Of a DNA stretch of 64,000 nucleotides, positions 3,224 through 58,324 are shown piece by piece (positions within the stretch are counted from its first letter, which is position 1; each line of letters opens with the position of its first letter). The stretch spans positions 2,790,001-2,854,000 of the forward strand of contig JBAIAA010000117.1 of NCBI GenBank assembly GCA_037893245.1, in the 5' to 3' direction. A model generated the notes under the pieces. The model had not been told where the DNA came from. It worked only from the letters and a program-made list of their open reading frames with translations, and made no database searches. This stretch comes from Crossaster papposus. Its lineage: Eukaryota > Echinodermata > Asteroidea > Velatida > Solasteridae. A program made the position numbers and the translations under genes.

Positions 3224-3261
3224 CTAGACATGTGTTTGTGGACAAACACAGAGCTGTTTCG
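3224..3261 (-). other. Family-1 rolling-circle 3' terminus (CTAG, hairpin, tag)
   Basis: On the plus strand CTAG is followed by the hairpin TGTGTTTGTGGACAAACACA and then GAGCTGTTTCG. Read on the minus strand this is tag, 9-bp stem hairpin, TGT, CTAG, with T following. Similar termini start at 3951, 4491 and 5664, always preceded by A on the plus strand. Confidence 0.7.
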
Positions 3262-4490
3262 AGTCTCTAAAATTACTTTCAATATGTGTGTGGTGGTATT
3301 TTGTGTGTGCCAAATCTCAAGTCGATCAGATTTACTAAAGTGTCAAAGTCAATAGTCTAAAGAAAAACGTGTACAAAACCTATGGGGGATAAATTGAACC
3401 TTTAACGTGACGCCCCGTGACCTTGAATGACGTAATCGTGCCACATTTCTCCTACGACCCTCTGTGGATGGTGGTCTATGTGTGTGCCAAGTCTCAAGTC
3501 GATCGGATTTACTAAGTGTCGAAGTCAATAGTCTAAAGAAAAACGTGTACAAAACCTATGGGGGACAAATTAAACCTTTAACTTGACGTCACGTGACCTT
3601 GAATGACGCAATCGTGCTTAATTTCTTTCAGGAACATCTGGTGGTGGTGTTCTGAGTGTATGGCAAGTTTCAAGTCGGTCGGATTTACCAAAGTGCCAAA
3701 GTCAATAGTCTGAAGAAAAACGTGTACAAAACCTATGGGGAAAATGTTACCTTTAACATGACGTCACGTGACCTTGAATGACGGAATCGCGACGAATTTC
3801 TTCTAGGACCGTCCTTGGGTGGTTGTCTAAATGTATGCCAAGTCTCAGGTCGATCGGATTTACCAAAGTGTCAAAGTGTATTGGCAGAAAAAACGTGTAC
3901 AAATTCTATGGGGAAAAGTGACAAATAAAAAAAAAACAAAAAACAAAAAACTAGACATGTGTTTGTGGACAAACACAGAGCTGTTTCGACTGTCTAAAAT
4001 TACTTTCAATATGTGTGTGGTGGTCTTTTGTGTGTGCCAAGTCTCAAGTCGATCGGATTTACTAAAGCGTCAAAGTCAATAGTCTAAAGAAAAACGTGTA
4101 CAAAACCTATGGGGAAAAAAATGAACCTTTAATGCGATGCCCCGTGACCTTGAATGACGTAATCGTGCCGAATTTCTTCTAGGACCGTCTGTGGATGGTG
4201 GTCTAAGTGTGTGCCAAGTCTCAAGTCGATCGGATTTACTAAAGTGTCAAAGTCAATAGTCTAAAGAAAAACGTGTACAAAACCTATGGGGAAAATATCA
4301 CCTTTAACGCAAAGTCACGAGACCTTGAATGACGTAATCGCGACGAATTTCTTCTAGGACCATCTGTGGGTGGTGTTCTACGTGTATGCCAAGTTTCAAG
4401 TCGATCGAATTTACCAAAGTGTCAAATTGCCATGGCAGAAAAAACGTGTACAAATCCTATGGGAAAAAGTCTGAAGAAAAAAAAGAAAAA

Positions 4491-5583
4491 CTAGAAATGT
4501 GTTTGTGGACAAACACAGAGCTGTTTCGCTTGTCTAAAATGACTTTGAATATATGAGTGGTGGTCTATGTGTGTACCAAATCTGAAGTCGATCGGATTTA
4601 CCAAAGTGCCAAATATATCTTGGTTGCAAAAAACGTGTACAAAACCTATAGGGAAAACTGCACCTTTAATGTGACGTCACATGGCCCATGATGATGTCGT
4701 CATGACGTCATCTTAATTTTCGTCTATAACACATCCTGGAATATTTGCATACCAAGTTTAACCCCAATCAGACCTTTACTTCCAGAGATAGAGGGTCTTA
4801 AAAACTACACCTTTAAAGTGACGTCACATGACCCACGATGACGTCATCATGACGATTATCCTTGTGGCCCTCATAGAGATGGTGGTCGAGGTGTGTACTA
4901 AGTCTCGAGTCGATTGGACTTACCAAAGTGTCAAATTCAATAGTCTGACGAAAAACGTGTACAAAACCTATAGGGAAACTGCGCCTTTAATGTGACGTCA
5001 CATGACACCCGATGACGTCATCGTAATGTCATCTTAATTTTCGTCTATAACACATCCCGGGATACTTGCATACCAAGTTTGACCCCAATCAGACCTTTAC
5101 TTCCAGAGATAGAGGGTCTTAAAAACTACACCTTTAAAGTGACGTCACATGACCCACGATGACGTCATCATGACGATTTTTCTTCTGGCCCCTCTGGGGA
5201 TGGTGGTCGAGGTGTGTTTTAAGTCTCAAGTCGATCGGATTTACCGAAGTGTCAAATTCAATATTCTGAAGAAAAACGTGTACAAATCCTATGGGGAAAA
5301 ATTGCACCTTTAACGTGACGTCACGTGACCACGAATGACGTAATCGTGACCACGAATGACGTAATCGTGACAAATTTCTTCTAGGATCATCTGTGGGTGG
5401 TGGTCTAAGTGTATGCCAAGTCTCAAGTCGATCGGATTTAACAAAGTGCCAAAGTGTATTGTCCGAACAAAAAACGTGTACAAACCCTATGGAGAAGAGT
5501 CTGAAGGAGAAAAAAAAAAAAAAAAAAAAAAAAAATCAGAACGAATACAATAGCTGTTTCGGCTGAAATGCCAAAACAGCTAA
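4491..5583 (-). mobile_element. Nested family-1 element E3
   Basis: It runs from CTAG at 4491 to the tag hairpin at 5552-5581 plus AA, with an uninterrupted body of about 1 kb of 176-bp monomers. It is the simplest complete family-1 element in the window. Confidence 0.6.
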
Positions 5584-5652
5584 AAAAAAAAAAAAAAAAA
5601 AAAAAAAATTTAACGAAAACAAAAGCTGTTTCGGTGAAAAACCGAAACAACT
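5552..5652. other. Two stacked family-1 end hairpins
   Basis: AGCTGTTTCGG faces its complement at 5552-5581 and again at 5624-5652. Each hairpin is preceded by an A-rich leader (forms like AACGAAAACAAA) and a poly-A tract. The second arm in each copy has one mismatch. They are read as 5' ends of E3 and E2. Confidence 0.65.
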
Positions 5653-6832
5653 AAAAAAGAAAACTAGACATGTGTTTGTGGACAAACACAGAGCTGTTTC
5701 GGATGTCTAAGATAACTTTCATTATGTGTGTGCCAAGTCTGAAATCGATTGGATTTGTCAATTTTCCCAAGATATATAAGTTGAAAAATACGTGTACAAA
5801 TCCTATGGGAAAAACTGCACCTTTAAAGTGACGTCACATGACACCCGATGATGTCATAATTACGTCCTCCTATTTTTTGTCTATAACACATCCTCGAATA
5901 CTTGCAAACCAAATTTGACCCCAATCGGACGTGTACTTCCAGAGATAGAGGGTCTTAAAAACTGCACCTTTTGTGTAACGTCACATGACCCACGATGACG
6001 TCATCATGACGATTTTTCTTCTGGACCTCCTGGGGATGGTGGTCGAGGTGTGTGCTAAGTTTCAAGTCAATCGGATTCACCAAACTGTCAAATTAAACAG
6101 TCTGAAGAAAAACGTGTACAAAACCTATGGGGGAAAATTGCACCTTTAACGTGACGTCACGTGACCAAGAATTATGTAATCGCGACGAATTTGTTCTAGG
6201 ACCGTCCTTGGGTGGCTGTCTAAATGTATGCCAAGTCTCAAGTCGATCGGATTTACCAAAGTGTCAAAGTGTATTGGCAGAAAAAACGTGTACAAATCCT
6301 ATGGGGAAAAAGTGAAAAAAAAAACAAAAAAAAAAAACTAGAGATATGTCTGTTCAAGGAACAGAGCATATGGCTTTTTCGCATTTTTTTGTTGTATTGT
6401 TCATTACATTTATGATTTCATTTAATAAATTTCTTTACTTTAATTTTTTCAAAACTGCAAATTTTAAATTATTAATTGGATTATATCTCTCGCGGTTAAT
6501 TTTCAGAAATGTTTAAAGGTTTTTTAATTGTAATTTCCGGTCTAGTGACGTCATATTATCGTGACGTAATTAACAGAAAGCTCGAGAGCTGTCTTAACTT
6601 TGCTATTTAAAGCAACAATCTGGATTATATCTATCGCGGTTGATTTTTAAGCGACGTTTTAAGGTTTTAAGGTCTTTTCATTGTAACTTCCGGTTTGGTG
6701 ACGTCATCAATAAATCTCTTTCTCAATATGTTGTTAGCACGAAGCTGATTATATACACCGGTTATAAAGTGATTTCAGCAAACTTCGCCACACACATCAA
6801 CAGATTATTCATTTTAACCATTTTTCAACCTG

Positions 6833-6848
6833 CCGCTAGAGGGCGCTA
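6833..6848 (+). promoter_or_regulatory. CTCF-like motif (representative of about 20)
   Basis: CCGCTAGAGGGCGCTA matches the vertebrate CTCF core CCACCAGGGGGCGCTA at 13 of 16 positions, and the changes fall at tolerated positions. Exact copies start at 7289, 8336, 9703, 10609, 11645, 13001, 13457, 14263, 14850, 15788, 16374, 18220, 19006, 19592, 20939, 54525, 56403 and 57439, all on the plus strand. Binding is not shown. Confidence 0.5.
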
Positions 6849-6956
6849 TAACGTGTTATGACGTCGCCGGTAATTATTTTGAAAAGTTTATTCTAGCCAG
6901 ACACTAACATCGTTGACAGTAAGTTCATATCATTTTTCAGTTTTAAATTATAAGGC

Positions 6957-6978
6957 ACTTCCGGTTTGGACCGGAAGG
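6957..6978. promoter_or_regulatory. Inverted ETS-type site pair
   Basis: CTTCCGG and CCGGAAG face each other across a 6-base spacer (TTTGGA here; TTTAGA and TTTTGA in other copies). The arms match the ETS family core. The dyad is kept in nearly all family-2 monomers and in the isolated fragment at 50754. Confidence 0.4.
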
Positions 6979-7578
6979 AAGGGTCACGTGATTTCACGCA
7001 CATGAGTTGAAATGAAGATCTTTAATTATTCTATCTATCGAGAGCTGTCTTAACTTTGCTATTTTAAGCAAAAATCTGGATTATATCTATCGCGGTTGAT
7101 TTTTAAGCGACGTTTTAAGGTTTTAAGGTCTTTTCATTGTAACTTCCGGTTTGGTGACGTCATCAATAAATATCTTTCTCAATATGTTCTTAGCACGAAG
7201 CTGATTATATACACCGGTTATAAAGTGATTTCAGCAAACTTCGCTACACACATTAACAGATTATTCATTTTAACAATTTTTCAACCTGCCGCTAGAGGGC
7301 GCTATAACGTGTTATGACGTCGCCGGTAATTATTTTGAAAAGTTTATTCTAGCCAGACACTAACATCGTTGAAAGTAAGTTCATATCATTTTTCAGTTTT
7401 AAATTATAAGGCACTTCCGGTTTAGACCGGAAGGAAGGGTCACGTGATTTCACGCACGCGGGATAAAATTAAGATCCTGGATTATCCTATCTATTGCCAC
7501 AAAAATTAAGTTTCGGTCTTTTGCGGTTGATTTGTTATTGATTTTCAAAGATTAAATCAATTACACCTTTAAGATGAC

Positions 7579-8807: not shown

Positions 8808-8852
8808 CTAGAACTACGTCTGTTCGAGGAACAGAACATAGGGCTTTTTCGC
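8808..8852 (-). other. Family-2 rolling-circle 3' terminus
   Basis: On the minus strand the order is tag GCGAAAAAGCC, hairpin with 7-bp stem, seven bases, CTAG, T. The loop varies (GAG or AAG on the plus strand) while the stem is kept. Other copies start at 6338, 12116, 13928, 15456, 18710, 20056 and 55150. Confidence 0.7.
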
Positions 8853-12115: not shown

Positions 12116-13927
12116 CTAGAACTACGTCTGTTCAAGGAACAGAACATAGGGCTTTTTCGCTTTCGCATTTTTTTAGAGTATTTTTTTTCAAAAAACCCCC
12201 GAATTTAAGTTAATTTAAACAGATTAAAATCAATTCAAACTGATTAAAACGATGACGTCACACGTTTCTGAACTTTTTGTGCAACTATCTATCACCTAAC
12301 AACACAAAATGAGGTGTTATGTTAACACGATCCTTTGCTGAGATATGCCTTCAACGTCTAAAAACGTAATAATTCAAATATAATCGTAATATGACGTAAC
12401 ATTTGTCAACATGACGCTAGAGGGCGCTTTAACATTTTATGAAGTCACTGTTAACATTTTTGTTACTTACAATCTAGCCAGCTCCTAACATCGTTGAAAG
12501 TAAGTTCACATCGTTTTTTACTTTTAAATTATAAGAAACTTCCGGTTTGGACCGGAAGGAAGTGTCAGGTCTTTTTGCATGTAATACAAATTATGAAGAC
12601 CATGGATTAATCTATCAATCCCCCCAAAAATCTAAATCAGATCTCTTACAGTTGATTTTATATTGATTTTCAAAGATTAAATTTATAAATATTTGGTTGC
12701 TTGTAATCTGACACTTGATGACGTCATCGTGACGTAATTAACAGAAAGCTCGAGAGCTGTCTCAACTTTGCTATTTAAAGCAAAAATCTGGATTATATCT
12801 ATCGCGGTTGATTTTTAAGCGACGTTTTAAGGTTTTAAGGTCTTTTCATTGTAACTTCCGGTTTGGTGACGTCATCAATAAATCTCTTTCTCAATATGTT
12901 GTTAGCACGAAGCTGATTATATACACCGGTTATAAAGTGATTTCAGCAAACTTCGCCACACACATCAACAGATTATTAATTTTAACGATTTTTCAACCTG
13001 CCGCTAGAGGGCGCTATAACGTGTTATGACGTCGCCGGTAATTATTTTGAAAAGTTTATTCTAGCCAGACACTAACATCGTTGAAAGTAAGTTCATATCA
13101 TTTTTCAGTTTTAAATTATAAGGCACTTCCGGTTTGGACCGGAAGGAAGGGTCACGTGATTTCACGCACATGAGTTGAAATGAAGATCTTTAATTATTCT
13201 ATCTATCGAGAGCTGTCTTAACTTTGCTATTTCAAGCAAAAATCTGGATTATATCTATCGCGGTTGATTTTTAAGCGACGTTTTAAGGTTTTAAGGTCTT
13301 TTCATTGTAACTTCCGGTTTGGTGACGTCATCAATAAATATCTTTCCCAATATGTTCTTAGCACGAAGCTGATTATATACACCGGTTATAAAGTGATTTC
13401 AGCAAACTTCGCTACACACATCAACAGATTATTCATTTTAACAATTTTTCAACCTGCCGCTAGAGGGCGCTATAACGTGTTATGACGTCGCCGGTAATTA
13501 TTTTGAAAAGTTTATTCTAGCCAGACACTAACATCGTTGAAAGTAAGTTCATATCATTTTTCAGTTTTAAATTATAAGGCACTTCCGGTTTGGACCGGAA
13601 GAAAGGGTCACGTGATTTCACGCACGTGAGATAAAATTAAGATCCTGGATTATCCTATCTATTGCCACAAAAATTAAGTTTCGGTCTTTTGCGGTTGATT
13701 TGTTATTGATTTTCAAAGATTAAATCAATTACACCTTTAAGATGACGTCACGTGACCCCTGATGACGTAACCATGACGTATTTCTGCGAGACACGAGTTC
13801 ACTATGGGGTCTTCACCTGGGTTAAGTTTTATGTAAATACGACTTTGTTTTCGATTAAAAGTGACGGGCAGAAAAAACGTGTACAAAGTCTATGGGGTTT
13901 AGGTTACTAAAAGAAAAGAAAAGAAAA

Positions 13928-15384
13928 CTAGAACTACGTCTGTTCGAGGAACAGAACATAGGGCTTTTTCGCATTCGCAATTTTTTAGATTAATTTTTTT
14001 TTTAAATTGAACTTTTATACCATCAAAACAATTTAAAATTATTGAAAACGAATTTAAGTTAATTTAAACAGATTAAAATGAATCCAAACTGATTAAAACG
14101 ATGACGTCACACGTTTGTGAACTATTTGTGAAAATATCCATCAACTAACAATACAAACATATGTGTTATGTTACCACGTTCCGTTGCTGAGATATGGCTT
14201 AAAGGTCTTAAAACGTAATAATTTAAATATAATCGTAATATGTTGTAACATTTGTCAACAGGCCGCTAGAGGGCGCTATAACATTGTATGAAGTCACCGT
14301 TGACTTTGTTGTTACTTACAACATAGCCAGCGCCTAACATCGTTGAAAGTAAGTTCACATCGTTTTCCATTTTTAAATTATAAGGCACTTCCGGTTTGGA
14401 CCGGAAGGAAGGGTCGGGTCTTTTTGCATCCAATACAAATTATGAAGACCATGGATTAGTCTATCAATTCCCTTAAAAATCTAAATCAGATCTCTTACAG
14501 TTGATTTTGTATTGATTTTCAAAGATTATATCTAGAAATATTTGGTTTATTGTAATTTGACACTTGAAGACGTCATCGTGACGTAATTAACAGAAAGCTC
14601 GAGAGCTGTCTTAACTTTGCTATTTGAAGCAAAAATCTGGATTATATCTATCCCGGTTGATTTTTAAGCGATTTTTAAAGGTTTAAAGGATTTTTCATTG
14701 TAACTTCCGGTTTGGTGACGTCATAAATATTTCCCCTTCCCAATATGGTCTTAGCATGAAGCTGATTATATACACTGGTTATAAAGTTATTTCAGCAAAC
14801 TTCGCTACACACATCAACCGAATATTCATTTTAACAATTTTTTAACCTGCCGCTAGAGGGCGCTATAACATGTTATGACGTCGCCGGTATTTTTTTTGAA
14901 AAATACAATCTAGCCAGACACTAACATCGTTAAAAGTAAGTTTATATCATTTATCACTTTTAAATTATAAGGCACTTCCGGTTTAGACCGGAAGGAAGGG
15001 TCACGTGATTTCACGCTCATGGGATAAAATGAAGATCCTGGATTATTCTATCTGTTGCCACAAAAATCAAGTTTCGGTCTTTTGCGGTTGATTTGTTATT
15101 GATTTTCAAAGATTAAATCAATTACACGTTTAAGATGACGTCACGTGACCCCTGATGACGTCACCATGTCGTATGTCGGCTAGGCACGAGCTTACTATAG
15201 GGTCTTCACTTGGGTTAAGTTTTATGGAAATACGACTTTGTTCTCTGGTAAAAGTACTTGTGCAAAAAAACGTGTACAAAGTCTATGGGGTTTAGGTTAC
15301 TAAAAGAAAAAAAAAGAAGAAAAAAGAAAAAGAAAAATCAGAACAAAAACAAAGGCTTTTTCGCAAAATTTGCGAAAAAGCCAA
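13928..15384 (-). mobile_element. Intact family-2 element E8, 1,457 bp
   Basis: This is the cleanest single element. On the plus strand it has CTAG, the TCTGTTC/GAACAGA hairpin and the GGCTTTTTCGC tag, then a body with two CTCF-like modules (14263 and 14850). The body ends at CTATGGGGTTTAGG, followed by an A-rich tract, ATCAGAACAAAAACAAA, the closing hairpin 15354-15382 and AA. It is non-autonomous and makes no protein. It serves as the model for reading the others. Confidence 0.65.
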
Positions 15385-15453
15385 AAAAAAAAAAGAAGAA
15401 AAAAAAAAATCAGAACAAAAACAAAGGCTTTTTCGCAAAATTGCGAAAAAGCC
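15354..15453. other. Two stacked family-2 end hairpins
   Basis: GGCTTTTTCGC faces GCGAAAAAGCC at 15354-15382 and at 15426-15453, each preceded by ATCAGAACAAAAACAAA and separated by an A/G tract. They are read as the 5' ends of E8 and E7. Confidence 0.65.
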
Positions 15454-17018
15454 AACTAGAACTACGTCTGTTCGAGGAACAGAACATAGGGCTTTTTCGC
15501 ATTCCCAATTTTTTTGATTAAAGTTTTCAAAAATTGAACTTTTATACCATCAAAACAATTTAAAATCATTGAAAACGAATGTAAGTTAATTTAAACAGAT
15601 TAAAATTATTTCAAACTAATTAAAACGATGACGTCACACGTTTGTGAACTTTGTGTTCAACTCTATCACCTAACAATACAAAAAGAAGTGTTATGTTAGC
15701 ACGTTCCGTTGCTGAGATATGGCTTAAAGGTCTAAAAACGTAACAATTGAAATATAATCGTAATATGACGTAACATTTGTCAATATGCCGCTAGAGGGCG
15801 CTATAACATTTTATGAAGTCACCGTTAACTTTTGTGTTACTTACAACCTAGCCAGCGCCTAACATCGTTGAAAATAAGTTCACATCGTTTTTCACTTTTA
15901 AATTATAAGGAACTTTCGGTTTGGACCGGAAGAAAGTGTCAGGTTTGTTTGCATGTAATAACATTATGAAGACCATGTATTAATCTATCAATTCCCCTAA
16001 AAATCTAAATCAGATCTCTTACAGTTGATTTTATATATATTTTCAAAGATTAAATCTAGAAATATTTGGTTGCTTGTAATCTGGCACTTGATGACGTCAT
16101 CTTGACGTAATTAACAGAAAGCTCGAGAGCTGTCTTAACTTTGCTATTTCAAGCAAAAATCTGGATTATATCTATCGCGGTTGATTTTTAAGTGACGTTT
16201 TAAGGTTTTAAGGTCTTTTCATTGTAACTTTCGGTTTGGTGACGTCATCAATAAATCTCTTTCTCAATATGTTCTTAGCACGAAGCTGATTATATACACC
16301 GGTTATAAAGTGATTTCAGCAAACTTCGCCACACACATCAACAGATTATTCATTTTAACAATTTTTCAACCTGCCGCTAGAGGGCGCTATAACGTGTTAT
16401 GACGTCGCCGGTAATTATTTTAAAAAGTTTATACTAGCCAGACACTAACATCGTTGAAAGTAAGTTCATATCATTTTTCAGTTTTAAATTATAAGGCACT
16501 TCCGGTTTAGACCGGAAGGAAGGGTCATGTGATTTCACGCACATGAGATAAAATTAAGATCCTGGATTATTCTATCTATTGCCACAAAAATTAAGTTTCG
16601 GTCTTTCGCGGTTGATTTGTTATTGAATTTCAAAGATTAAATCAATTACACCTTTAAGATGACGTCACGTGACCCCTGATGACGTCATCATGACGTATTT
16701 CTGCGAGACACGAGTTCACTATAGGGTCTTCACCTGGGTTAAGTTTTATGGAAATACGACTTTGTTTTCTGGTAAAAGTACTTGTGCAAAAAAACGTTTA
16801 CAAAGTCTACGGGGTTGGATTCTGCGTAGCCGAAAGCGTGTTTACTTACCTGTCGTACGCGGCGCCCTTCCCCATGGGCAATTTGATGACGTCATCTTGT
16901 TTCACAGGTTGGCGGCTAGTGTCCTCTTGGGTGAGCGTACATGTGCTTGCACGAACGATGTCAGTGGTGATACATTCGCTCAATACAAAGGAATGTCCAC
17001 AGTGCGTATGTAATGGTA

Positions 17019-17769: not shown

Positions 17770-20700
17770 TAGCATAAGGTAAAGCTACGTGCACTATCAG
17801 TGTATACGTACATGTACTGTACGTACATACTGTACTGCATGTATATTATACGTGTGCCATGCACGCGTAAGGGGTCATTGCTTTTTGCACCTAGGCCAAA
17901 ACGATTACATTTCAAGGGTGCCGCAGGCTATGTTCAACTTCGTTTTTTGCCCCAAAACACAGGGAAGTTCGAGAACTACTTTTACATTAACCTTTAGAGC
18001 AAAAATCAAGATTGTATCTGTCAAGTTTAATTTTTTAGGAATTTTCAAAGGAAAAGGAGTCTTTTCATTCTAACTTCCGGTCTGGTGACGTCATAATTTT
18101 TTCTTCTCGTCAACTTGTTCCTAGCATGAAGCTGATTAAATACACCGGTTATAAAGTGATTTCAGCAAACTTCGCCACACACATCAACAGATTATTCATT
18201 TTAACAATTTTTCAAACTGCCGCTAGAGGGCGCTATAATATGTTATGACGTCACCAATACTTTTTTTGGAAAATACATTGTAGCCAGACACTAACATCGT
18301 TGAAAGTAAGTTCATATCATTTTTCACTTTCAAATTATGAGGCACTTCCGGTTTAGACCGGAAGGAAGGGTCACGTGATTTCACGCACACGAGATAAAAT
18401 TAAGATCCTGGATTATTCTATCTATTGCCACAAAAATTAAGTTTCGGTCTTTTGCGGTTGATTTGTTATTGAATTTCAAAGATTAAATCAATTACACCTT
18501 TAAGAAGACGTCATGTGACCCCTGATGACGTCACCATGACGTATTTCTGCGAGACACGAGTTCACTATAGGGTCTTCACCTGGGCAGGGGGGGTGACCTG
18601 GGTTAAGTTTTATGGAAATACGACTTTGTTTTCTGGTAAAAGTGACGGGCAGAAAATACGTGTACAAAGTCTATGGGGTTTAGGTTACTAAAAGAAAAGA
18701 AAAAAGAAACTAGAACTACGTCTGTTCAAGGAACAGAACATAGGGCTTTTTCGCTTTTGCATTTTTTAACAGTATTTTTTTTCAAAAAAACCGAATTTAA
18801 GTTAATTTAAACAGATTAAAATAAATTCAAACTGATTAAAACGATGACGTCACACGTTTGTGAACTTTTTGTGCAACTATCTATCGCCTAACAACACACA
18901 ATGAGGTGTTATGTTAACACGATCCTTTGCTGAGATATGCCTTCAACGTCTAAAAACGTAATAATTCAAATATAATCGTAATATGATGTAACATTTGTAA
19001 ACATGCCGCTAGAGGGCGCTATAACATTTTAAGAAGTCACCGTTAACTTGTTTGTTACTTACAACCTAACCAGCGCCTAACATCGTTGAAAGTAAGTTCA
19101 CATCGTTTTCCACTTTTAAATTATAATGCACTTCCGGTTTGGACCGGAAGGAAGGGTCATTTTTTGTGCATGTAATACAAATTATGAAGACCATGGATTA
19201 ATCTATCAATTCTCTTAAAAATCTAAATCAGATCTCTTACAGTTGATTTTATATTCATTTTCAAAGATTAAATCTAGAAATATTTGGTTGCTTGTAATCT
19301 GACATTTGATGACGTCATCGTGACGTAATTAACAGAAAGCTCGAGAGCTGGGTTTACTTTGCTATCTGATGCAAAAATCTGGATTATATCTATAGTGGTT
19401 GATTTTTAAGCGATTGTTTAAGGTTTAAAGGATTTTTCATTGTAACTTCCGGTTTGGTGACGTCATAAATATTTCTCCTTCCCAATATGGTCTAAGCATG
19501 AAGCTGATTATATACACCGGTTATAAAGTGGTTTCAGCAAACTTCGCCACACACATCAACAGATTATTCATTTTAATCATTTTTCAACCTGCCGCTAGAG
19601 GGCGCTATAACATGTTATGACGTCGCCAATTTTTTTTGGAAAAGTTTATTCTAGCCAGACACTAACATCGTTGAAAGTAAGTTCATATCATTTTTCACTT
19701 TCAAATTATGAGGCACTTCCGGTTTAGACCGGAAGCAAGGGTCACGTGATTTCACGCACACGAGATAAAATGAAGATCCTGAATTATTCTATATATTGCC
19801 ACAAACATCAAGTTTCGGTCTCTTGCGGTTGATTTGTTATTGATTTTCAAAGATAAAATCAATTGCACCTTTAAGATGACGTCACGTGACCCCTGATGAC
19901 GTCATCATGACGTCTGTCTGCGAGACACGAGTTCACTATAGGGCCATCACCTGGGTTAAGTTTTATGGAAATACGACTTTGTTTTCTATTAAAAGTGACG
20001 GGCAGAAAAAACGTGTACAAAGTCTATGGGGTTTAGGTTACTAAAAGAAAAAAAACTAGACCTACGTCTGTTCAAGGAACAGAACATAGGGCTTTTCCGC
20101 TTTCGCATTTTTTTAGAGTATTTGTTTTCAAAAAAACCGAATTTAAGTTAATTTAAACAGATTAAAATAAATTCAAACTGATTAAAACGATGACGTCACA
20201 CGTTTCTGAACTTTTTGTGCAACTATCTATCACCTAACAACACAAAATGAGGTGTTATGTTAACACGATCCTTTGCTGAGATATGCCTTCAACGTCTAAA
20301 AACGTAATAATTCAAATATAATCGTAATATGACGTAACATTTGTCAACATGACGCTAGAGGGCGCTTTAACATTTTATGAAGTCACTGTTAACATTTGTG
20401 TTACTTACAATCTAGCCAGCTCCTAACATCGTTGAAAGTAAGTTCACATCGTTTTTTACTTTTAAATTATAAGGAACTTCCGGTTTGGACCGGAAGGAAG
20501 TGTCACGTCTTTTTGAATGTAATACAAATTATGAAGACCATGGATTAATCTATCAATCCCCCTAAAAATCTAAATCAGATCTCTTACAGTTGATTTTATA
20601 TTGATTTTCAAAGATTAAATTTATAAATATTTGGTTGCTTGTAATCTGACACTTGATGACGTCATCGTGACGTAATTAACAGAAAGCTCGAGAGCTGTCT

Positions 20701-30215: not shown

Positions 30216-30223
30216 CCATTTGT

Positions 30224-39000: not shown

Positions 39001-42000
39001 TAGAAATGCTCTCATCAGATCTATAAAAAACAAGTATGCTATCAATAGATGTTATCGGATAAATTTAATTGAAAAAGGAAAAAGAAAATACCAGAAGAAT
39101 AAAAATTATCGTAAAAATATGAAAAGAATGAATAAAGACAGGTCAAACAGAAGGAAAGAAAGTCTAACTAATATGAATAATGTTGTGCAAAATTTGAGAC
39201 AAAGTGTATCTGCAGGACCCGAGTATGTATGTGCAGTTTGTCATAAACTTCTTTTCCGTAAGCAAGTTGTTAAGTGTAATCCAAATAAATACAGAAGTGT
39301 TGTTTGTATATCTGACAAGTATTTGCATAGGTGTGGAGAGTGTGATGAAAACTGTCTAGTGTCACAATCAAGTAGGTCATCTCTGTGGATTTGCTACACA
39401 TGCCACAGGAAATTGCTTCAGAACAAGATACCATCAGAAGCTTGTGCAAACAATTTGTCATTGGAAGATATCCCTGAGGAATTGAGTTGTTTAAATACAT
39501 TAGAGGAACACCTTATTGCAATTAACATTGCCTTCCTTAAAATGATAGCTTTACCCAGAGGTGGACAGAATTGTGTACATGGCCCGGTAGTTTGTGTACC
39601 TTCGGATATTTCAGAAACGGTGACATCATTGCCTAGATGTAGAAATGACCAATTAATCAGAGTTAAGTTGAAGAGAAAATTATCATTCAAAGGGTATTAC
39701 CAGTATCAATTTATAAGCAGGGAACATGTTGAGCAGGCGCTGTGTTATTTAAAAACAAATAATAAGTGGTATAATAACATTGATATAAACTGTGAGTGGG
39801 AAAATCCCTTGAAAAATGAAAATAATAGCGAAGTACATGAAAGTGATGATTCTACTAACAGTGATGATGAAACAGATGAAGACACAGACGAGGAGCGTTT
39901 GACAGGAATAGCTTATGATACTTGTATGCAACCAGTGAATGTTGCCTCTGAGGTTCTCGATCAATATTTCGATGATGTGCTCTGTGTTGCACCTTGTGAA
40001 GCAAATAGTCCAATCCGAGTATTAATGGAAGAAGGTAATGAGGCTAAGTGTTTTCCAGCATTGTTTCCAAGAGGCCAACCCATATTCAGTGATGATCAAG
40101 ATGTCAGATTAAGTCTTATCAGATATTTTCATAACAGGTTAATGAATGCAGATAATAGATTTGCAAAGAGGATTCAGTACATATTTTATGCTCAGTACCT
40201 ATCGGAAATACAGCAAGTAATGTCAAGTGTATCAATTGCAATGCGTCAGACTTCGGGCAAAGTACACAGTGCCGTGAATGTGAATGCTAGCATGATTAAA
40301 GATAGGGATCAACTCAGAGATATATTACAATCTGATAGTGGTTATAAATTCTTGAAGCCAATCAGAGGTACACCTCCATACTGGCAAGCAGCTCAGAAAG
40401 ATGTCATGGCTATGATTAGACAACTTGGAATTCCAACATGGTTTTGCTCATTTTCAGCGGCAGATATGAGATGGCCTGAAATTATAAATACAATATTGAG
40501 GCAACAGGGTGATTCCAGAGATATTGATGAATTAGATTGGAATGAAAAGTGTAAAATATTGCGAAGTAATCCAGTGACTGCAGCTAGAATGTTTGATCAA
40601 AGATTCCACACATTTTTAAAAGATGTCATCATGTCTACAGCTCATCCCATTGGCAAAGTCAAGGATTATTTTTATAGAGTGGAATTTCAGCAGAGAGGAT
40701 CTCCACATACTCACTGTTTGTTTTGGATTAAGAATGCTCCAAGATTGGGAGTTGACAATGATAAAGATGTTATTAAATTCATTGATACATACATTAGTTG
40801 CAAAATGCCTTCAGAGGAAGAGGACAAAGAGTTAAATGACATAATAAGTCATGTACAGCTACATACCCGAAAACATTCAAAATCTTGTAGGAAAAAGGGC
40901 ACTGACTGTAGATTTAATTTCCCAAGACCACCATCCAGTAGAACATTCATTACTGAGCCAGATCCAATTGATGAGGATGATGATGATAACATTGATGATA
41001 ATGTTGACAGTGATCATGGTGAGTTTTCTGGTGATGAACACAATGATACTGATAAAAGTACAACTGGAAAGAGGCATAATGAGGCCAAAGAATTATTGAA
41101 GTCTGTGTGGGAAGCAATACAGAATGAAAAGAACCAGTATTTATCAACTACAGAATTGTTTAACATAATTAATATTACACAAGATGAGTTTGAAAAAGCA
41201 AATAATGTTTTGAATGCTAAACCTACTATTGTCTTAAAGAGAAAACCACAAGATGTATGGGTCAATCTGTACAATCCTAATTTGATAAGATGTTGGAATG
41301 CTAACATGGATATCCAGTATATCAGTGATGCATATGCTTGTGCAGCTTATGTTGTGTCATATATGTCAAAGTCTGAACGTGAAATGGGACAGTTATTATC
41401 GAATACACAGAAAGAAGCAGAGAAGGGTAACTTAGATGCCAGACAAAGTATGAAAGAATTAGGTTCTGTGTATCTACATAATCGAGAAATATCAGCACAA
41501 GAAGCAGTGTTTCGTGTTTGTAGTCTGAGATTGAAAGAAGGTTCTAGAAAAGTAGAATTTATACCTGTAGGTGAGAATCCTGTTAGAATGAGCTTGCCAC
41601 TGAGTGTAATTCAGAACAGATGTGAGGATGATGACCGTGATATATTTATGACTAACAGAGTTGATCGCTACAAAGCAAGACCACGTATTGCTAAATTTAA
41701 TGACATGTGCCTTGCAACATTTTGCTCAGAATACAGAATTATTTATAATGCAAACACAGACATGAAAAGAAAGAAATCACCAGTGTATGCACTAAAAGAT
41801 GGTTTGGGCCACATACAGAAACGGAGTAGAACTGAGCCTGCAGTGATTAGATATCCTAGATTTTCAGAGAATAAATATCCTGAGAAATATTATCATAGTA
41901 TATTGCAGCTATTTCTTCCATATCGTGTAGATGCTCAGCTAAAACCACCTCAATTTGAAACTTATGAAGAATTTTTCAAAACTGGAGCTATATGTGTAAA

Positions 42001-44386
42001 GAAGCAATTAAACCTTGTTAAATGCATTGTTGAAAGTAATCGGTCTATTTATGAGGCAAATGCAGAGTGTCTTGCAGCAGCAGAAGAGCATGTAAGAAAG
42101 TTTGGTCCTCAAGAAGATGCATGGGCTCTGATTTGTCCTAACTCTGAACAAGAAAGACTTGACTGTGAAGCAAAACGTAAACCAGTAACAGAGGAAGAGA
42201 ATGAATTTGATATCCCTGACCTAAAAGTTGATGGAAAAGATGGTAAAATATGCAATATTGAACCACATTCAGTAAAGATTTCAAAGCATGAAGCTCTGAA
42301 TTTATTAAGATCATTAAATGAAAAACAGAGACGGGTGTTTAACAAGATTCGTAATTGGTGCTTACAGAAAGTGAATGGTAAAAATCCTGAAGCATTTCAT
42401 GTATTTGTGACAGGTGGAGCCGGAACTGGGAAAAGCCACTTAATAAAATCAGTCCATTATGAAGCGGCAAGACTTTTTTGTAGAAAGACTGATAACCCTG
42501 ACAATGTTTCCGTATTAATAACTGCACCTACAGGAGTTGCTGCATTTAATATTCATGGTAGTACAATTCACAGTGCCTTGTCAATCCCTGTTGATGCTAG
42601 ATTACCTTATCAACCACTTGGTGAAGAGAAGTTGAATACATTAAGGAATAAATTGCAAGATCTTCAAATTGTAATTATTGATGAAATATCAATGGTTGAT
42701 CACAAGATGTTGTGCTATATACATGGACGTTTGCGTCAGATAAAACAAACACGCAATCATAATCCCTTTGGTAATGTCAGTATTTTAGCTGTTGGTGATT
42801 TTTATCAGTTGCCTCCAGTAAAAGGAAAGCCACTTCATCAAAGAGCAGTTGCAGTTGATTTCTGGAATGATAATTTCAAGAAAGTCGAGCTTGTTGAAAT
42901 TATGCGACAAAAAAATGATGTTAAATTTGCAGAAATACTGAATAGACTACGTATCAGACCAAAGAACAAAAAGTTATCAGATGAAGATGTGTTAATTTTA
43001 AGATCCCGAGGAACTGGAGAGGATTGGGATGATGCATTACATATCTTTCCATGTAACAAAGAGGTGGACGAATACAATACTCAGACATTATTTTCAAAGT
43101 GTACTGATTGTACATGTATTGTTGCAAAAGATTTGCGAAAGGATTCGTGCAAAGGTAAAGCAAAGGTAAAAGTTACTAAAAAATCAATGTACACAAACTT
43201 GCCTGAATCATTGTGGCTTGGTGTTGGTGCTCAAGTAATGTTAACTAAAAATATTGACACTTCAGACGGACTTGTGAATGGAGTATTTGGCATTGTTCGT
43301 GCAATAAATATGTTGCCTGATAATTCGTGGCCAAAGTGCATTGAAGTTGAGTTTGATAATAAGGATGTTGGGTCTAAGTTGAAAGGAAAATTTAAATCAT
43401 CAAATAAAGAAGACACAGTTCCAATTCAAAAGGAGGAGGAAAATGTTACTAAGCAGTGTGTTAGACAACAATTTCCCTTAAAATTAGCCTGGGCATGTAC
43501 AGTTCACAAAGTGCAAGGAATGACAACAGATAGAGCAGTTGTTTCTCTCAAGCGTACATTTTCTTGTGGACAAGCTTATGTTGCACTGAGTAGAGTAACA
43601 TCTATGAATGGTCTTGTCATTGAAGGTTTTGATGAAAAATATATTTACTGTAATAAGGTAGTATCAGAATCATTGAAAAATATGCCAGCATTTATTAATG
43701 AGACAGAATCAACAAAAGCAAAATCCAATTTGACTGTTATAATGATGCATAATATTCAAGGATTAAAGGAACATTATATGGACTTGACATTGAATAATGA
43801 AATGATTAAATCAGATTTCATTTGCCTTACTGAGACATGGCTTGATGATGAACTGTACTGTGATACAGAATTAACTGAATTCAAAGCTTATCATCAAATC
43901 AGAAGTACTTGTTACAATAATTCCAGTAATTTAACAAGAGTGTTAAAACAGCAGTGTCACGGAGGCGTCAGTGTATATGGAAGAAGGAACAGAGCTTTCA
44001 GTAGGCTTATGCTGTCAGTGCAAAATATTGAATACATTGCATTTAAGATAATTAGTAAGATATCATGCTCTGTGGTAGTCATTTACCGTCCAGCATCATA
44101 CTGCATAAGTGAATTTATTGGTAATCTTACAACTTTACTTGATGAACTTCATAAGGTGTCTAATAGATGTATTATCATGGGTGATTTTAACGAAGACATT
44201 CTGAAACATTCTTCAGGTATTCAAAAGCTAATTGAAGGTCATGGCTACAAACAGATTGTGACTGAATCAATAACTGAGGGTGGAACTTTGATTGATCATG
44301 TTTATGTTAGGAATATGGATTCAGTGAATGCTTCAGTAGTCCCAACATATTATAGTTATCATGAGTCGGTTTGTATAACTATGTGA
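36008..44386 (+). CDS. Helentron-type Rep/helicase with C76-like and OTU proteases and EEP endonuclease
   Basis: The frame has 2,792 codons and no internal stop. Residues about 20-220 resemble the C76 (herpesvirus tegument-type) deubiquitinase fold, with QGD, GRQC39 and D166-S-H168. Residues 300-445 are an OTU protease (D319-G-N-C322, H439). Three 40-residue and seventeen 18-residue repeats follow, then a Cys-rich DUF6570-like region (1071-1265). The Rep part has the HUH motif at H1567-T-H1569 and two tyrosines, Y1781 and Y1785, so single-strand nicking and rolling-circle transposition are expected. A PIF1-family helicase has Walker A K2142 and Walker B D2225-E2226. The EEP endonuclease (2578-2792) has N2582, E2609 and D2726-F-N2728. 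The first in-frame ATG is 36131, after the C76 cysteine, so the frame at 36008 (GTG) is an exon start rather than the true N-terminus. OTU plus EEP is the known hallmark of Helentrons. Confidence 0.9.
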   Translation: MKLPESSSSKNSQKTDVRCIQGSFHQGDFRFADLAGRQCVCMSLCGILFSQIKSLNKWCPKDMDFVLNTGNELYRYLSRSSTMKNEYLLISELPDEIDAFSKHFHMKIDESFSGTFAEQTVLAEFNMIPFSTAVEQTVQKYCACFICFHGNTFAVIAQDGLYYIFDSHSRNQNSHLDSEGRSLLKCVSSWQGVYRYCTELGKSMNVKDYEQFEITGVTVWIDNDVSVCIHNDETAKSANASTSTCTGSIRQETEEPKENDIQIVEVEKVNFKFVPLTHSNRIALCERLGVTKVILNDDKMSMKCKNLGRPDSIKKIKGDGNCFFRAISFAISGTEDNHMKLRLAIVNHLLENAAQFRGYLREGYRTVKEYVTSAGLYNDGTWATEVEIIATAHMLDCNIYTYDDANEWYLFSNRYICTDSSIDGSVKFGIYLYHRNRVHYDLVTQVHKPGTVKLDSCKSKNECKLSNTTVSKRSNCGKRVNVVTQVHKPITVKLDSCENKNEYKRSNITVSKQSNCGKLVNVVTQVHKPITVKLDSCENKNESKDSKIKISKQSNCKKRKHVNGRLNKKLKKEQSRERYWKTKNEANPTNCENVKKNKRSTRKKEKYHSCANYKEDAIEFGKQIYQENASKRKESLKQKYKKNAEYKDKKVGSAKQRYHENAEYRSKYTNNAAHRQNMIKYAKTKYHEDAAHRQNKINSVKTKYHGDAAYRQRKINSVKTKYHGDAAYRQRKTNSVKTKYLEDAAHRQNKINSVKTKYHGDAAYRQRKTNSVKTKYLEDAAHRQNKINSVKTKYHEDAAHRQNKINSVKTKYHGDAAHRQNKINSVKTKYHGDAAYRQRKTNSVKTKYLEDAAHRQNKINSVKTKYHGDAAYRQRKTNSVKTKYLEDAAHRQNKINSVKTKYHEDAAHRQNKINSVKTKYHGDAAHRQNKINSVKTKYHGDAAYRQKKTNSVKTKYLEDAAHRQNKINSVKTKYHKDAAHRQRKIDQAKRKYQCNLVYRNALIRSIKNKYAINRCYRINLIEKGKRKYQKNKNYRKNMKRMNKDRSNRRKESLTNMNNVVQNLRQSVSAGPEYVCAVCHKLLFRKQVVKCNPNKYRSVVCISDKYLHRCGECDENCLVSQSSRSSLWICYTCHRKLLQNKIPSEACANNLSLEDIPEELSCLNTLEEHLIAINIAFLKMIALPRGGQNCVHGPVVCVPSDISETVTSLPRCRNDQLIRVKLKRKLSFKGYYQYQFISREHVEQALCYLKTNNKWYNNIDINCEWENPLKNENNSEVHESDDSTNSDDETDEDTDEERLTGIAYDTCMQPVNVASEVLDQYFDDVLCVAPCEANSPIRVLMEEGNEAKCFPALFPRGQPIFSDDQDVRLSLIRYFHNRLMNADNRFAKRIQYIFYAQYLSEIQQVMSSVSIAMRQTSGKVHSAVNVNASMIKDRDQLRDILQSDSGYKFLKPIRGTPPYWQAAQKDVMAMIRQLGIPTWFCSFSAADMRWPEIINTILRQQGDSRDIDELDWNEKCKILRSNPVTAARMFDQRFHTFLKDVIMSTAHPIGKVKDYFYRVEFQQRGSPHTHCLFWIKNAPRLGVDNDKDVIKFIDTYISCKMPSEEEDKELNDIISHVQLHTRKHSKSCRKKGTDCRFNFPRPPSSRTFITEPDPIDEDDDDNIDDNVDSDHGEFSGDEHNDTDKSTTGKRHNEAKELLKSVWEAIQNEKNQYLSTTELFNIINITQDEFEKANNVLNAKPTIVLKRKPQDVWVNLYNPNLIRCWNANMDIQYISDAYACAAYVVSYMSKSEREMGQLLSNTQKEAEKGNLDARQSMKELGSVYLHNREISAQEAVFRVCSLRLKEGSRKVEFIPVGENPVRMSLPLSVIQNRCEDDDRDIFMTNRVDRYKARPRIAKFNDMCLATFCSEYRIIYNANTDMKRKKSPVYALKDGLGHIQKRSRTEPAVIRYPRFSENKYPEKYYHSILQLFLPYRVDAQLKPPQFETYEEFFKTGAICVKKQLNLVKCIVESNRSIYEANAECLAAAEEHVRKFGPQEDAWALICPNSEQERLDCEAKRKPVTEEENEFDIPDLKVDGKDGKICNIEPHSVKISKHEALNLLRSLNEKQRRVFNKIRNWCLQKVNGKNPEAFHVFVTGGAGTGKSHLIKSVHYEAARLFCRKTDNPDNVSVLITAPTGVAAFNIHGSTIHSALSIPVDARLPYQPLGEEKLNTLRNKLQDLQIVIIDEISMVDHKMLCYIHGRLRQIKQTRNHNPFGNVSILAVGDFYQLPPVKGKPLHQRAVAVDFWNDNFKKVELVEIMRQKNDVKFAEILNRLRIRPKNKKLSDEDVLILRSRGTGEDWDDALHIFPCNKEVDEYNTQTLFSKCTDCTCIVAKDLRKDSCKGKAKVKVTKKSMYTNLPESLWLGVGAQVMLTKNIDTSDGLVNGVFGIVRAINMLPDNSWPKCIEVEFDNKDVGSKLKGKFKSSNKEDTVPIQKEEENVTKQCVRQQFPLKLAWACTVHKVQGMTTDRAVVSLKRTFSCGQAYVALSRVTSMNGLVIEGFDEKYIYCNKVVSESLKNMPAFINETESTKAKSNLTVIMMHNIQGLKEHYMDLTLNNEMIKSDFICLTETWLDDELYCDTELTEFKAYHQIRSTCYNNSSNLTRVLKQQCHGGVSVYGRRNRAFSRLMLSVQNIEYIAFKIISKISCSVVVIYRPASYCISEFIGNLTTLLDELHKVSNRCIIMGDFNEDILKHSSGIQKLIEGHGYKQIVTESITEGGTLIDHVYVRNMDSVNASVVPTYYSYHESVCITM
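37331..37690 (+). repeat. Three 120-bp coding repeats
   Basis: Three copies of a 40-residue unit containing TQVHKP, TVKLDSC and SNCGK lie between the OTU domain and the basic repeat region. The second and third copies are more alike than the first. Confidence 0.85.
38056..38970 (+). repeat. Seventeen 54-bp coding repeats
   Basis: An 18-residue unit (KTKYHGDAAYRQRKTNSV and variants with LEDAAHRQNKINSV) occurs seventeen times. Variants alternate in blocks, a sign of multi-unit duplication. The unit is basic and helix-prone. The long open frame on the opposite strand here is a by-product of the repeat. Confidence 0.9.
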
Positions 44387-46352: not shown

Positions 46353-46364
46353 TATATTATATTA

Positions 46365-46630: not shown

Positions 46631-46642
46631 TATATTATATTA

Positions 46643-48529: not shown

Positions 48530-48549
48530 CAGTGCTGCAGTGCAGTGCC

Positions 48550-51545: not shown

Positions 51546-52057
51546 TTGGTTTAAAGTTTGCTTCCAAGTTTGAGTTGACAGGCTTGTTGCATTTACTTGT
51601 TGTTGCCTAAATATGTTTGGCAGTCAAATAAATAAAGGTAGAATTCATCAAATTGCACTACTCGGCCAAGTATGAGGACTACAAAAGTGCTGTTTTAGGC
51701 AACATTATTTGGTTATTGAATGTACAATTTACTTTTGGTTTTCATTGGACATACAGGGTATCAATTGCCATACACTTAGTATGTTGTATGCTTCTTCTTT
51801 TTGATTCCGTTGACTACTATTAATATAAATTGTGGTTCAGCAAACCTAAATCTTCGGTCCTGACTGCATTTATGTGCAGATTGTGCACACTGAATGGGAC
51901 CAACACTCCACTTAATTAAACAATTATGATATAACAAAAGTCTTAAACGAGAGTCGACTGTATATAATATTGTTAAAGTGGTATACTACATTGTATTTTT
52001 GTCATGGTAATCATTTAAAAAGCAATAATGTGTCTGTATTATATTTTAAAAGATACA
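51546..52057. other. AT-rich interval, nothing recognised
   Basis: This is single-copy sequence to the left of repeat U', without frames or repeats of note. Confidence 0.45.
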
Positions 52058-55034: not shown

Positions 55035-55052
55035 AATCAGAACAAAAACAAA

Positions 55053-55147
55053 GCTTTTCCGCTTTAAAGCGGAAAAGCAAAAAGAAGAAGACAACAAAAA
55101 AATGAGAACAAAAACAAAGGCTTTTTCGCAAAATTTGCGAAAAAGCC
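55053..55147. other. Closing hairpins of E11 (variant) and E10
   Basis: GCTTTTCCGCTTTAAAGCGG with its full complement lies at 55053-55078, and the standard GGCTTTTTCGC hairpin at 55119-55147. The variant matches only the tag at 20091. Confidence 0.7.
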
Positions 55148-55149
55148 AA

Positions 55150-57899
55150 CTAGAGATATGTCTGTTCAAGGAACAGAGCATATGGCTTTTTCGCATTTTG
55201 TTGTTGTATTGTTCATTACATTTATGATTTCATTTAATAAATTTCTTTACTTTAATTTTTTCAAAACTGCAAATTTTAAATTATTAATTGGATTATATCT
55301 CTCGCGGTTAATTTTCAGAAATGTTTAAAGGTTTTTTAATTGTAATTTCCGGTCTAGTGACGTCATATTATTTTGTTTTTATCCGCCAACTTGTTCCTAA
55401 CAAGATGCTGATTATAAATACCAATTATAAAGCGATTTGAGCAAACTTCGCCACGAAAATGAACTGATTATTCATTTTAAACATTTTTCAACCTGTCACT
55501 AGAGGGCGTTATAACAATTTATGACGTCACCGGTAACTTTGTTTGTAGAGTGCAGGCTACCTAGAGACTATCATCGTTGAAAGTAAATTCATATCATTTT
55601 CAACTTTCAAATTATAAGGCACTTCCGGTTTGGACCGGAAGGAAGTGTCAGGTCTTTTTGCATGTAATACAAATTATGAAGACCATGATTAATCTATCAA
55701 TTTCCTTAAAAATCTAAATCAGATCTCTTATAGTTGATTTTATATTGATTTTCAAAGAATAAATTTAGAAATATTTGGTTGCTTGTAATCTGACACTTGA
55801 TGACGTCATTGTGACGTAATTAACAGAAACTCGAGATCAGTCTTAACTTTGCTATCTGAAGCAAAAATCTGGATTATATCTATAGCGGTTGATTTTTAAG
55901 CGACTTTTTAAAGTTTAAAGGATTTTGTATTGTAACTTCCGGTTTGGTGACGTCATAAATATTTCTCCTTCCCAATGTGGTCTAAGCATAAAGCTGATTA
56001 TATACACCGGTTATAAAGTTATTTCAGCAAACTTCGCAACCACTGACCTCTACACCTGGACGGATCATTGTCCATATTCTGCTGTGCTAACACTTGAAGT
56101 CGGCGCGAACTGGAAGTGCAACATGGCGGACCCGAGACGTCACTGCTGTGAGCCAATGAAATGTCCAGGTGTAGAGGTTAGTGGATTTACTCTGTACGTT
56201 TTGTATTTATAAACATTACGTAATACGTATCGTACCAACACCTAGACATTTCATTGGCTCACAGAGTGACGTCGTGGGTCCGCCATGTTGCACTTCTCCG
56301 CATGCCGACTTCAAAATAGAACAATGATGATCTGTCCATGTATAGAGGTCAGTGTTCGCAACACACATCAACAGATTAATTATTTTAACCATTGTCAACC
56401 TGCCGCTAGAGGGCGCTATAACATGTTATGACGTCGCCGGAATTTTTTTGAATAGTTTATTCTAGCCAGACACTAACATCGTTGAAAGTAAGTTCATATC
56501 ATTTTTCACATTCAAATTATAAGGCACTTCCGGTTTTGACCGGAAGGAAAGGTCACGTGATTTCACGCACAGGAGATAAAATGAAGATCCTGGATTATTC
56601 GATTAATTGCCACAAAATTCAAGTTTCGGTCTTTTGCGGTTGATGTTTTATTGATTTTCCAAGATTAAATCAATTGCACCTTTAAGATAAGGTCACGTGG
56701 GCCTGATGACGTCTTCCTCGTGGTGTCTGTCGGCGAGACTGGAGTTCACTATTGGGTCTTCACCTGGGTCGAGTTTATGGAAATACGACTTTGTTTTTCC
56801 GTTAAAAGTGCTTTGAATTGTGCAAGCAACGTTTACAAAGTCTACGGGGTTGGATTCTGCGTAGCCGAAAGCGTGTTTACCTACCTGTCGTACGCGGCGC
56901 CCTTCCTCATGGGCAACTTGATGACGTCATCCTGTTTCACAGGTTGGCGGCTAGTGTCATCTTGGGTGAGCGTAAATGTGCTTGCACGAACGATGTCAGT
57001 GGTGATACATTCGCTCAATACATAATGCACTATCAGTGTATACGTACATGTACTAGCATGTATATTATACGTGTGGCACGCACACGTAAGGGGTCAATGC
57101 TTTTTGCACCTAGGCCAAAACGATTACATTTCAAGGGTGCCGCAGGGTATGTTCAAGTTCGTTTTTTGCCCCAAAACACAGGGAAGTTCGAGAACTACTT
57201 TTACATTAACCTTTACAGCAAAAATCAAGATTGTATCTGTCAAGTTTAATTTTTTAGGAATTTTCAAAGGAAAAAGAGTCTTTTCATTATAACTTCCGGT
57301 CTGGTGACGTCATAATTTTTTCTTCCCGTCAAATTGTTCCTAGCATGAAGCTTATTAAATACACCGGTTATAAAGTGATTTCAGCAAACTTCGCCACACA
57401 CATCAACAGATTATTCATTTTAACCATTATTCAAACTGCCGCTAGAGGGCGCTATAACATGTTATGACGTCACCAATTTTTTTTGGAAAAATATATTGTA
57501 GCCAGACACTAACATCGTTGAAAGTAAGTTCATATCATTTTTCACTTTCAAATTATGAGGCACTTCCGGTTTAGACCGGAAGGAAGGGTCACGTGATTTC
57601 ACGCACGCGAGATAAAATCAAGATCCTGGATTATTCTATCTATTGCCACAAAAATTAAGTTTCGGTCTTTTGCGGTTGATTTGTTATTGAATTTCAAAGA
57701 TTAAATCAATAACACCTTTAAGATGACGTCACGTGACCCCTGATGACGTCACCATGACGTATTTCTGCGAGACACGAGTTCACTATGGGGTCTTAACCTG
57801 GGTTAAGTTTTATGTAAATACGACTTTGTTTTCGATTAAAAGTGACGGGCAGAAAAAACGTGTACAAAGTCTATGGGGTTTAGGTTACTAAAAGAAAAG

Positions 57900-57931
<32 letters not shown>

Positions 57932-57974
57932 GAACAAAAACAAAGGCTTTTTCGCAAAATTGCGAAAAAGCCAA
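55150..57974 (-). mobile_element. Nested family-2 element E12
   Basis: Its CTAG directly follows E10's closing GCCAA. The opening is the same subtype as E5 (CTAGAGATATG). It closes with the hairpin 57945-57972, and it contains a MITE. Confidence 0.5.
56041..56354. mobile_element. 314-bp hAT-type MITE, duplicated copy
   Basis: It has the same ends and the same TTCGCAAC target duplication as 10247-10560, so it arrived by segment duplication and not by a new insertion. Confidence 0.88.
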
Positions 57975-58322
57975 AAAAAAAATCAGAACAAAAACAAAGG
58001 CTTTTTCGCAAAATTGCGAAAAAGCCAAAAAAAAAATCAGAACAAAAACAAAGGCTTTTTCGCAAAATTGCGAAAAAGCCAAAAAAAAAAAGAAAACAAA
58101 AAACTTTAACGAAAACAAAAGCTGTTTCGGCTGAAAGGCCGAAACAGCTAAAAAAAAACTTTAACGAAAACAAAAGCTGTTTCGGCTGAAATGCCGAAAC
58201 AGCTAAAAAAACTTCAACGATTACAATAGCTGTTTCGGCTGAAATGCCGAAACAGCTAAAAAGAAAAAAACAAAAAACTTTAACGAAAACAAAAGCTGTT
58301 TCGGTGAAAAACCGAAACAGCT
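57945..58322. other. Cluster of seven end hairpins
   Basis: There are three GGCTTTTTCGC hairpins (57945, 57999 and 58053, spaced exactly 54 bp), then four AGCTGTTTCGG hairpins (58120, 58175, 58228 and 58294). Each has a short leader such as TCAGAACAAAAACAAA or TTTAACGAAAACAAA and A-rich spacers. The last ends at the array junction. Family 2 inside and family 1 outside mirrors the order of openings at the left. Confidence 0.75.
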
Positions 58323-58324
58323 AA

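Follow-up and report, generated by a model that had tools for sequence, protein, structure and literature searches.

Helentron-like elements apparently nested in one another's 5′ tracts at a single locus of Crossaster papposus

The window analysed here, a stretch of 64,000 nucleotides from the genome of Crossaster papposus, carries two families of terminal marks, all of them on the plus strand. Approximate matching on both strands of the window recovered 12 "openings" and 13 "closings" at the same places, and on the same single strand, at which a first-pass annotation had put them:

3224, 3951, 4491 and 5664, marks on the plus strand: family-1 openings
6338, 8808, 12116, 13928, 15456, 18710, 20056 and 55150, marks on the plus strand: family-2 openings
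5582, 5653, 58150, 58205, 58258 and 58323 (end positions), marks on the plus strand: family-1 closing hairpins
15382, 15453, 55078, 55147, 57972, 58026 and 58080 (end positions), marks on the plus strand: family-2 closing hairpins

Patterns derived from the openings gave 8 and 4 matches, against 0 in 100 shuffles each, these patterns having been written from the same openings. A generic scan of both strands for CTAG, an adjoining hairpin and a subTIR with its complement in a palindromic hairpin, which borrowed only CTAG from the first-pass annotation, returned 18 CTAG-hairpin candidates; the 12 that possessed a partner hairpin were exactly the 12 known openings. The claim that nearly every new opening sits in an A-rich tract or directly against a closing GCCAA was likewise borne out, with 15456 and 55150 adjoining GCCAA and eight other inner openings in A-rich sequence, while 5664 lies 10 nt past a closing.

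The direction assigned to these marks, on the other hand, has to be reversed. The palindromic subTIRs of mite HINEs are separated from the 5′ terminus by 2-4 nt and from the 3′ terminus by 38-60 nt, and a palindrome is found close to the 3′ end (PMC4067079); the end layout described for oyster HINEs is similar (PMC7492417). Read on the minus strand, the "closings" at this locus are palindromic subTIRs at a terminus, and the "openings" consist of a subTIR, a hairpin and CTAG; by this published anatomy, the minus strand is that of the elements, with the opening as their 3′ end and the closing as their 5′ end. About 28-34 nt separate the 3′ subTIR from the terminus, which is a little nearer than the distance given for the mite elements. 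On the plus strand, AA precedes all 12 of the 3′ ends and follows all 13 of the 5′ ends (AA background in the window, 12.4%), and the generic scan places a hairpin at every one of the 12 3′ ends. For two of these 12, the hairpins folded as single strands gave z values of -2.7 and -3.6. Rfam returned no family match at the gathering score, and a scan of viral contigs with the family-2 3′ end pattern gave 0 matches. The 3′ ends are as follows:

3224..3261, minus strand: family-1 3′ end (subTIR, hairpin, CTAG), found by matching, pattern and generic scan
3951..3988, minus strand: family-1 3′ end, also found by matching, pattern and generic scan
4491..4528, minus strand: family-1 3′ end of an element spanning 4491-5582 or 4491-5653, with no insert between body and hairpin
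5664..5701, minus strand: family-1 3′ end, host of the family-2 stack
6338..6382, minus strand: family-2 3′ end, element A, left without a 5′ end by maximum matching
8808..8852, minus strand: family-2 3′ end, element B (5′ end taken as 58080)
12116..12160, minus strand: family-2 3′ end, element C (5′ end 15453)
13928..13972, minus strand: family-2 3′ end, element D (5′ end 15382; about 1.46 kb, uninterrupted)
15456..15500, minus strand: family-2 3′ end, element E (5′ end taken as 58026), against the 5′ end of C
18710..18754, minus strand: family-2 3′ end, element F (5′ end 55147)
20056..20100, minus strand: 3′ end of element G, with a private subTIR variant (5′ end 55078)
55150..55194, minus strand: family-2 3′ end, element H (5′ end 57972), against the 5′ end of F

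With this polarity, the A tract of the plus strand becomes a T-rich tract of the element, immediately internal to its 5′ end. The earlier proposal that insertions repeatedly target the A-rich tract next to the terminal hairpin is supported, the hairpin being that of the 5′ end. Likewise, since the closings are 5′ ends, the hairpin piles are piles of 5′ ends:

5543..5653, minus strand: two family-1 5′ ends, of hairpin types X and Y
15342..15453, minus strand: two family-2 5′ ends
55038..55147, minus strand: the 5′ end of G (variant subTIR) and a family-2 5′ end
57919..58080, minus strand: three identical 54-bp units, each with a family-2 5′ end
58111..58323, minus strand: four family-1 5′ ends, the last two of types X and Y

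The X-Y order of the double hairpin is seen twice, and the two elements supposed to carry it, 3224 and 4491, are less similar in their 3′ ends (90.0% identical) than 3224 and 3951 are (96.7%) and so not nearest relatives there. Between 57932 and 58323, three family-2 5′ ends lie inside four family-1 5′ ends; this would follow from an insertion of family 2 into the tract of 5664, and it agrees with the earlier placement of family 2 inside family 1. Both families also contain tandem modules, of 456 bp in family 2 (6582-7494 and 12750-13662) and about 176 bp in family 1 (3303-4463), which are reminiscent of the central repeats of oyster HINEs.

The whole assemblage is set in a satellite, and its outer boundary is defined as follows:

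910..3223, no strand assigned: 871-bp satellite units, left flank
58324..61069, no strand assigned: 871-bp satellite units, right flank, which together with the left flank gives the empty site
3224..58323, minus strand: outermost family-1 element, including everything nested in it, with an exact empty site

The satellite units of the two flanks are about 99% identical to each other and form a short array split by the stack. Comparison of the flanks with intact units shows ACATAAAA followed by TTACC in the latter, and ACATAAAA followed by CTAG...GCTA and then ATTACC in the window. The stack thus occupies a single AAAA site, with an exact empty site and no target duplication. As such, 3224 and 58323 bound one locus, and no partner for the surplus family-1 5′ ends can accordingly lie before 3224; the same empty site rules out openings upstream of the window as mates of the last two closings.

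Coding capacity for transposition is found in element G:

35987..44386, plus strand: 2799-aa frame without a stop, with Herpes_teg_N, OTU, DUF6570, Helitron_like_N, PIF1 and Exo_endo_phos

Rep and PIF1 helicase are combined in this one protein (PF14214, 122.1 bits; PF05970, 102.2 bits). The C-terminal endonuclease (PF03372, residues 2589-2779) is marginal by score, at 24.4 bits just under the cutoff of 24.5, and is carried by many relatives among the matches listed. Rep motif 2, YFYRVEFQQRGSPHTH, fits the Helentron-type rule of (F/Y)xR and S given in PMC4067079. Residues 1360-2000, used as a query, have 768 relatives, the best of which is 65% identical; those named among the best 120 of the 768 come from Haliotis, Saccoglossus, sea urchins, oysters and fishes. 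The frame lies on the plus strand and the elements on the minus strand, contrary to the usual, non-defining agreement of coding strand with polarity; Helentron-Da-40 offers a precedent for such reversed coding orientation (PMC4067079). Judged by eye, the subTIRs identical at both ends measure 11-12 bp in family 2 and 13 bp in G, against a criterion of at least 11 bp, and are borderline in family 1, with 11 bp in one and 10 bp in three of the four 3′ ends. The target is T-rich and without target-site duplication, as seen in the outer empty site and in the AA at all ends, the inner target sites being read by comparison with other copies and not from true empty sites. The presence of Helentron/HINE ends together with a Rep/PIF1/OTU/endonuclease frame in one element upholds the original assignment of these sequences as Helentron-like.

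Several other structures are present in G. Direct repeats of 1.58 kb (21175-22750 and 52056-53631; 98.4% identical) flank its 32-kb interior, and outer element sequence does not rejoin cleanly at their borders. There is also a 600-bp direct repeat (49167-49766 and 50947-51546; 98.3% identical) and a foldback at 29224-30218 with two 480-nt arms, 98% complementary and spaced by 35 nt. Upstream of the transposase frame, a 446-aa open frame with a PHD finger (31968-33308) is perhaps an accessory or captured gene. In Pfam searches of four small frames, none scored above cutoff and one had a weak match below it. Within the transposase frame itself, about 17.5 copies of a 54-bp repeat (38019-38961) encode an 18-residue repeat. 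A second Helentron with its own ends inside G was rejected, the generic scan having found no further CTAG-hairpin end with a partner hairpin, among ends of the CTAG type. Finally, copies of a short element (about 316-326 bp), with inverted ends and what appear to be 8-bp duplications, which we take to be hAT-like, are located at 10245-10560, 56041-56354 and 25128-25453. The first two copies occupy the same site in B and H, indicating that B and H share descent, and the third lies in G.

The order of the marks is largely that of balanced brackets. At its core, 20056 and 55078 have in common the variant subTIR of G, and the generic scan links 20056 to 55078 alone; nesting predicts this pair as the innermost one. 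Apart from it and the outermost pair, the pairings are derived from bracket order. Maximum matching leaves 3 of the 25 marks unmatched, namely one family-2 3′ end (6338) and two family-1 5′ ends, just as the first-pass annotation had counted one family-2 opening and two family-1 closings. Orders as good or better arose in 0.46% of full shuffles, 1.9% of run-level shuffles and 1.4% of those with the outermost pair fixed (5000 each), and in 9.1% of 5000 when only direction was permuted within each family. The bracket order by itself is only modestly significant (0.5% to 9% of shuffles), and this at the one locus. If X-Y is taken as a single 5′ end, which was decided only once the data had been seen, the unmatched marks fall to 1 of 23, a result equalled or bettered by 0.1% of 5000 shuffles.

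When the inserts are left out under our preferred pairing, a normal 5′ region is recovered in seven of eight hosts, comprising four of the five interrupted family-2 elements (B, C, E and F) and all three family-1 elements (3224, 3951 and 5664). Specifically, the restored B, C, E and F consist of GGTTACTAAAAG, an A-rich tract, TCAGAAC or TGAGAAC, and the hairpin, the same arrangement as in the uninterrupted D, G and H, and the restored family-1 hosts resemble the uninterrupted 4491; for 3951 this assumes pairing with 58205, plain bracket order giving 3951-5653 and leaving 58205 surplus. The one host not restored is A (6338), for which no 5′ end is left. Insertion points lie 54-71 nt from the host 5′ terminus, and 118 nt from it in 3224, which has two 5′ hairpins. 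The chain of elements down to G has seven or eight members, depending on the family-1 pairing.

Comparison of the junctions allows host and insert to be followed separately. Five tract junctions yield ten pairs, and host and insert divergence differs at p<0.05 in four of them (p = 0.016, 0.004, 0.041 and 1.6e-6); after Bonferroni correction two of the ten remain, six show no discordance, and the pairs share junctions and so are not independent. Between the B/C and F/G junctions, there are 51 differences in 657 positions on the host side versus 7 in 449 on the insert side (p=1.6e-6). Thus, over 449 bases C and G are 98.4% identical in their 3′ sides, whereas their hosts B and F differ by 7.8%, and this discordance argues that not every tract junction arose by copying of a whole unit. 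In hosts A, B and E, the left tract is identical and the insertion fell at one and the same nucleotide of it. For all 11 inner insertions to fall in the tract, in this orientation, by random choice among host AAAA/TTTT sites, log10 P is -7.5, with the tract borders and pairing set by the analyst and the window not being a random sample. The tract holds 40-60% of such sites in family 1 and 5-23% in family 2, and most of the weight of this statistic therefore comes from family 2.

Taken as a whole, these observations make it highly probable that 3224-58323 is one locus produced by serial Helentron/HINE insertion into the T-rich tract inside another copy's 5′ end. The nesting proposed in the first-pass annotation is well supported by the outer empty site, the seven restored hosts, the private subTIR pair of G and the near-identical inserts in different hosts; the case is carried by the empty site, host restoration and the discordance of junction sides, the bracket statistics being weaker. 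In such a process, the transposed single strand would be joined between T residues, and, the element's own 5′ tract being T-rich on the transferred strand, insertion would always take the same direction. The host's 5′ hairpin would be stranded on the far side of each insert, repeated events building a pile of 5′ hairpins, and every insertion would bring a fresh tract, such that the target renews itself. Consistent with this, HINEs show no target-site change, which has been taken by the authors as a sign of a single-stranded intermediate (PMC4067079).

We consider the prospects evenly balanced for plain site preference, in which any T-rich tract is open to attack, the element's own tract is just the nearest long one and self-targeting goes no further. 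HINEs have been described as favoring T-rich sequence (PMC4067079), and the outermost insertion lies in a mere AAAA of the satellite. The shorter A/T runs of host bodies, however, hold none of the 12 ends, though tract length could explain that. Such plain site preference is compatible with serial self-insertion in any case, as the stack would still renew its own target.

Another process, tandem duplication of 5′ ends through slippage or unequal exchange in A-rich tracts, could generate hairpin piles in place of separate nested elements, but we regard it as improbable here. The three 54-bp units at 57919-58080 are identical, their 10 A's included, as plain tandem duplication would give, and Tandem Repeats Finder calls the piles tandem arrays; in other piles, however, the hairpins differ in loop, lead or subTIR. 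Moreover, the bodies of five family-2 elements (A, B, C, E and F) end at the tract without their own hairpin alongside, and the four extra hairpins in family-2 piles, by the analyst's count, stand in an order allowed by nesting. Finally, rolling-circle concatemers, in which replication continues past the terminator and one template yields its tandem copies all at once, as for plant Helitrons, could account for the two exact 3′-TT-5′ joints (15453/15456 and 55147/55150) and have a parallel in arrays with several 5′ ends described in PMC12628747, but this very improbable origin is rejected because the joint neighbors are from different subfamilies (C/E, 92.0% identical on the 5′ side and 91.1% on the 3′ side; F/H, 92.3% and 82.5%), most joints are without a 5′ hairpin, and 12 3′ ends are present where several 5′ ends per single 3′ end would be expected.

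Returning to serial self-insertion, the most likely source of the surplus 5′ ends is composites mobilized as single units, each extending from the outer 5′ end as far as the first 3′ end. For Fusarium Helitrons with several 5′ termini, self-insertion followed by transposition from the outer 5′ to the first 3′ end has been put forward (PMC5148889), and the surplus 5′ ends at this locus fit that model. The missing 5′ end of A was most likely lost by contraction among the identical 54-bp units; if the three units are the ends of H, E and B, a contraction from four to three would explain its absence. It is tempting to extend the argument, in a speculation that we hold to be rather doubtful, and to suggest that Helentrons bring along their own target, located on the transferred strand just within the 5′ end, from which strand-locked stacks arise that renew themselves. 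Hits at the same nucleotide in hosts of one subfamily would then line up the stranded hairpins into a perfect short array, a path from nesting to a hairpin satellite that needs no tandem duplication, and the element would also have a way to keep its copies away from genes. The three identical 54-bp units would be an example of such an array. If 5′ T-tract targeting were to hold genome-wide, it would jointly explain clustering, orientation and multiple 5′ termini, and the path from transposons to short hairpin arrays would become testable.

Helitron-like elements are known to cluster, and the origin of several 5′ termini has so far been inferred from composites. Self-nesting and multiple termini have already been published for Helitrons, as have tandem and neighboring copies. 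No stack as deep as this one, locked to one strand and placed in the 5′ tract of the element itself, appears in the available text of the open-licence papers listed, which is a weak negative. Clusters and tandem arrays are mentioned for Helentrons and HINEs in PMC4067079, the available text of which contains no stack like the present one, with a dozen copies in each other's 5′ tract and in one direction. Oyster Cg_HINE shares a subTIR with a complementary repeat at its left end, a subTIR with a palindrome at its right end, T-rich sites and satellite-like central repeats, and the word "nested" is absent from the main text as available (PMC7492417). In maize, nesting of Helitrons likewise leads to multi-terminus elements, and the 3′ end is also CTAG, but these are plant elements, the worked case has multiple 3′ rather than 5′ termini, and the available text describes no self-targeted tract (PMC3288121). 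For the composite Helitrons of Fusarium, self-insertion was similarly proposed to explain how several 5′ termini come to precede one 3′ terminus, on the basis, in the text available, of one nested case and inferred composites (PMC5148889). The locus described here, in contrast, presents the nested state itself, seven or eight layers deep and involving two families, and appears to keep that intermediate intact, with hosts, inserts, stranded 5′ ends and an exact outer empty site together.
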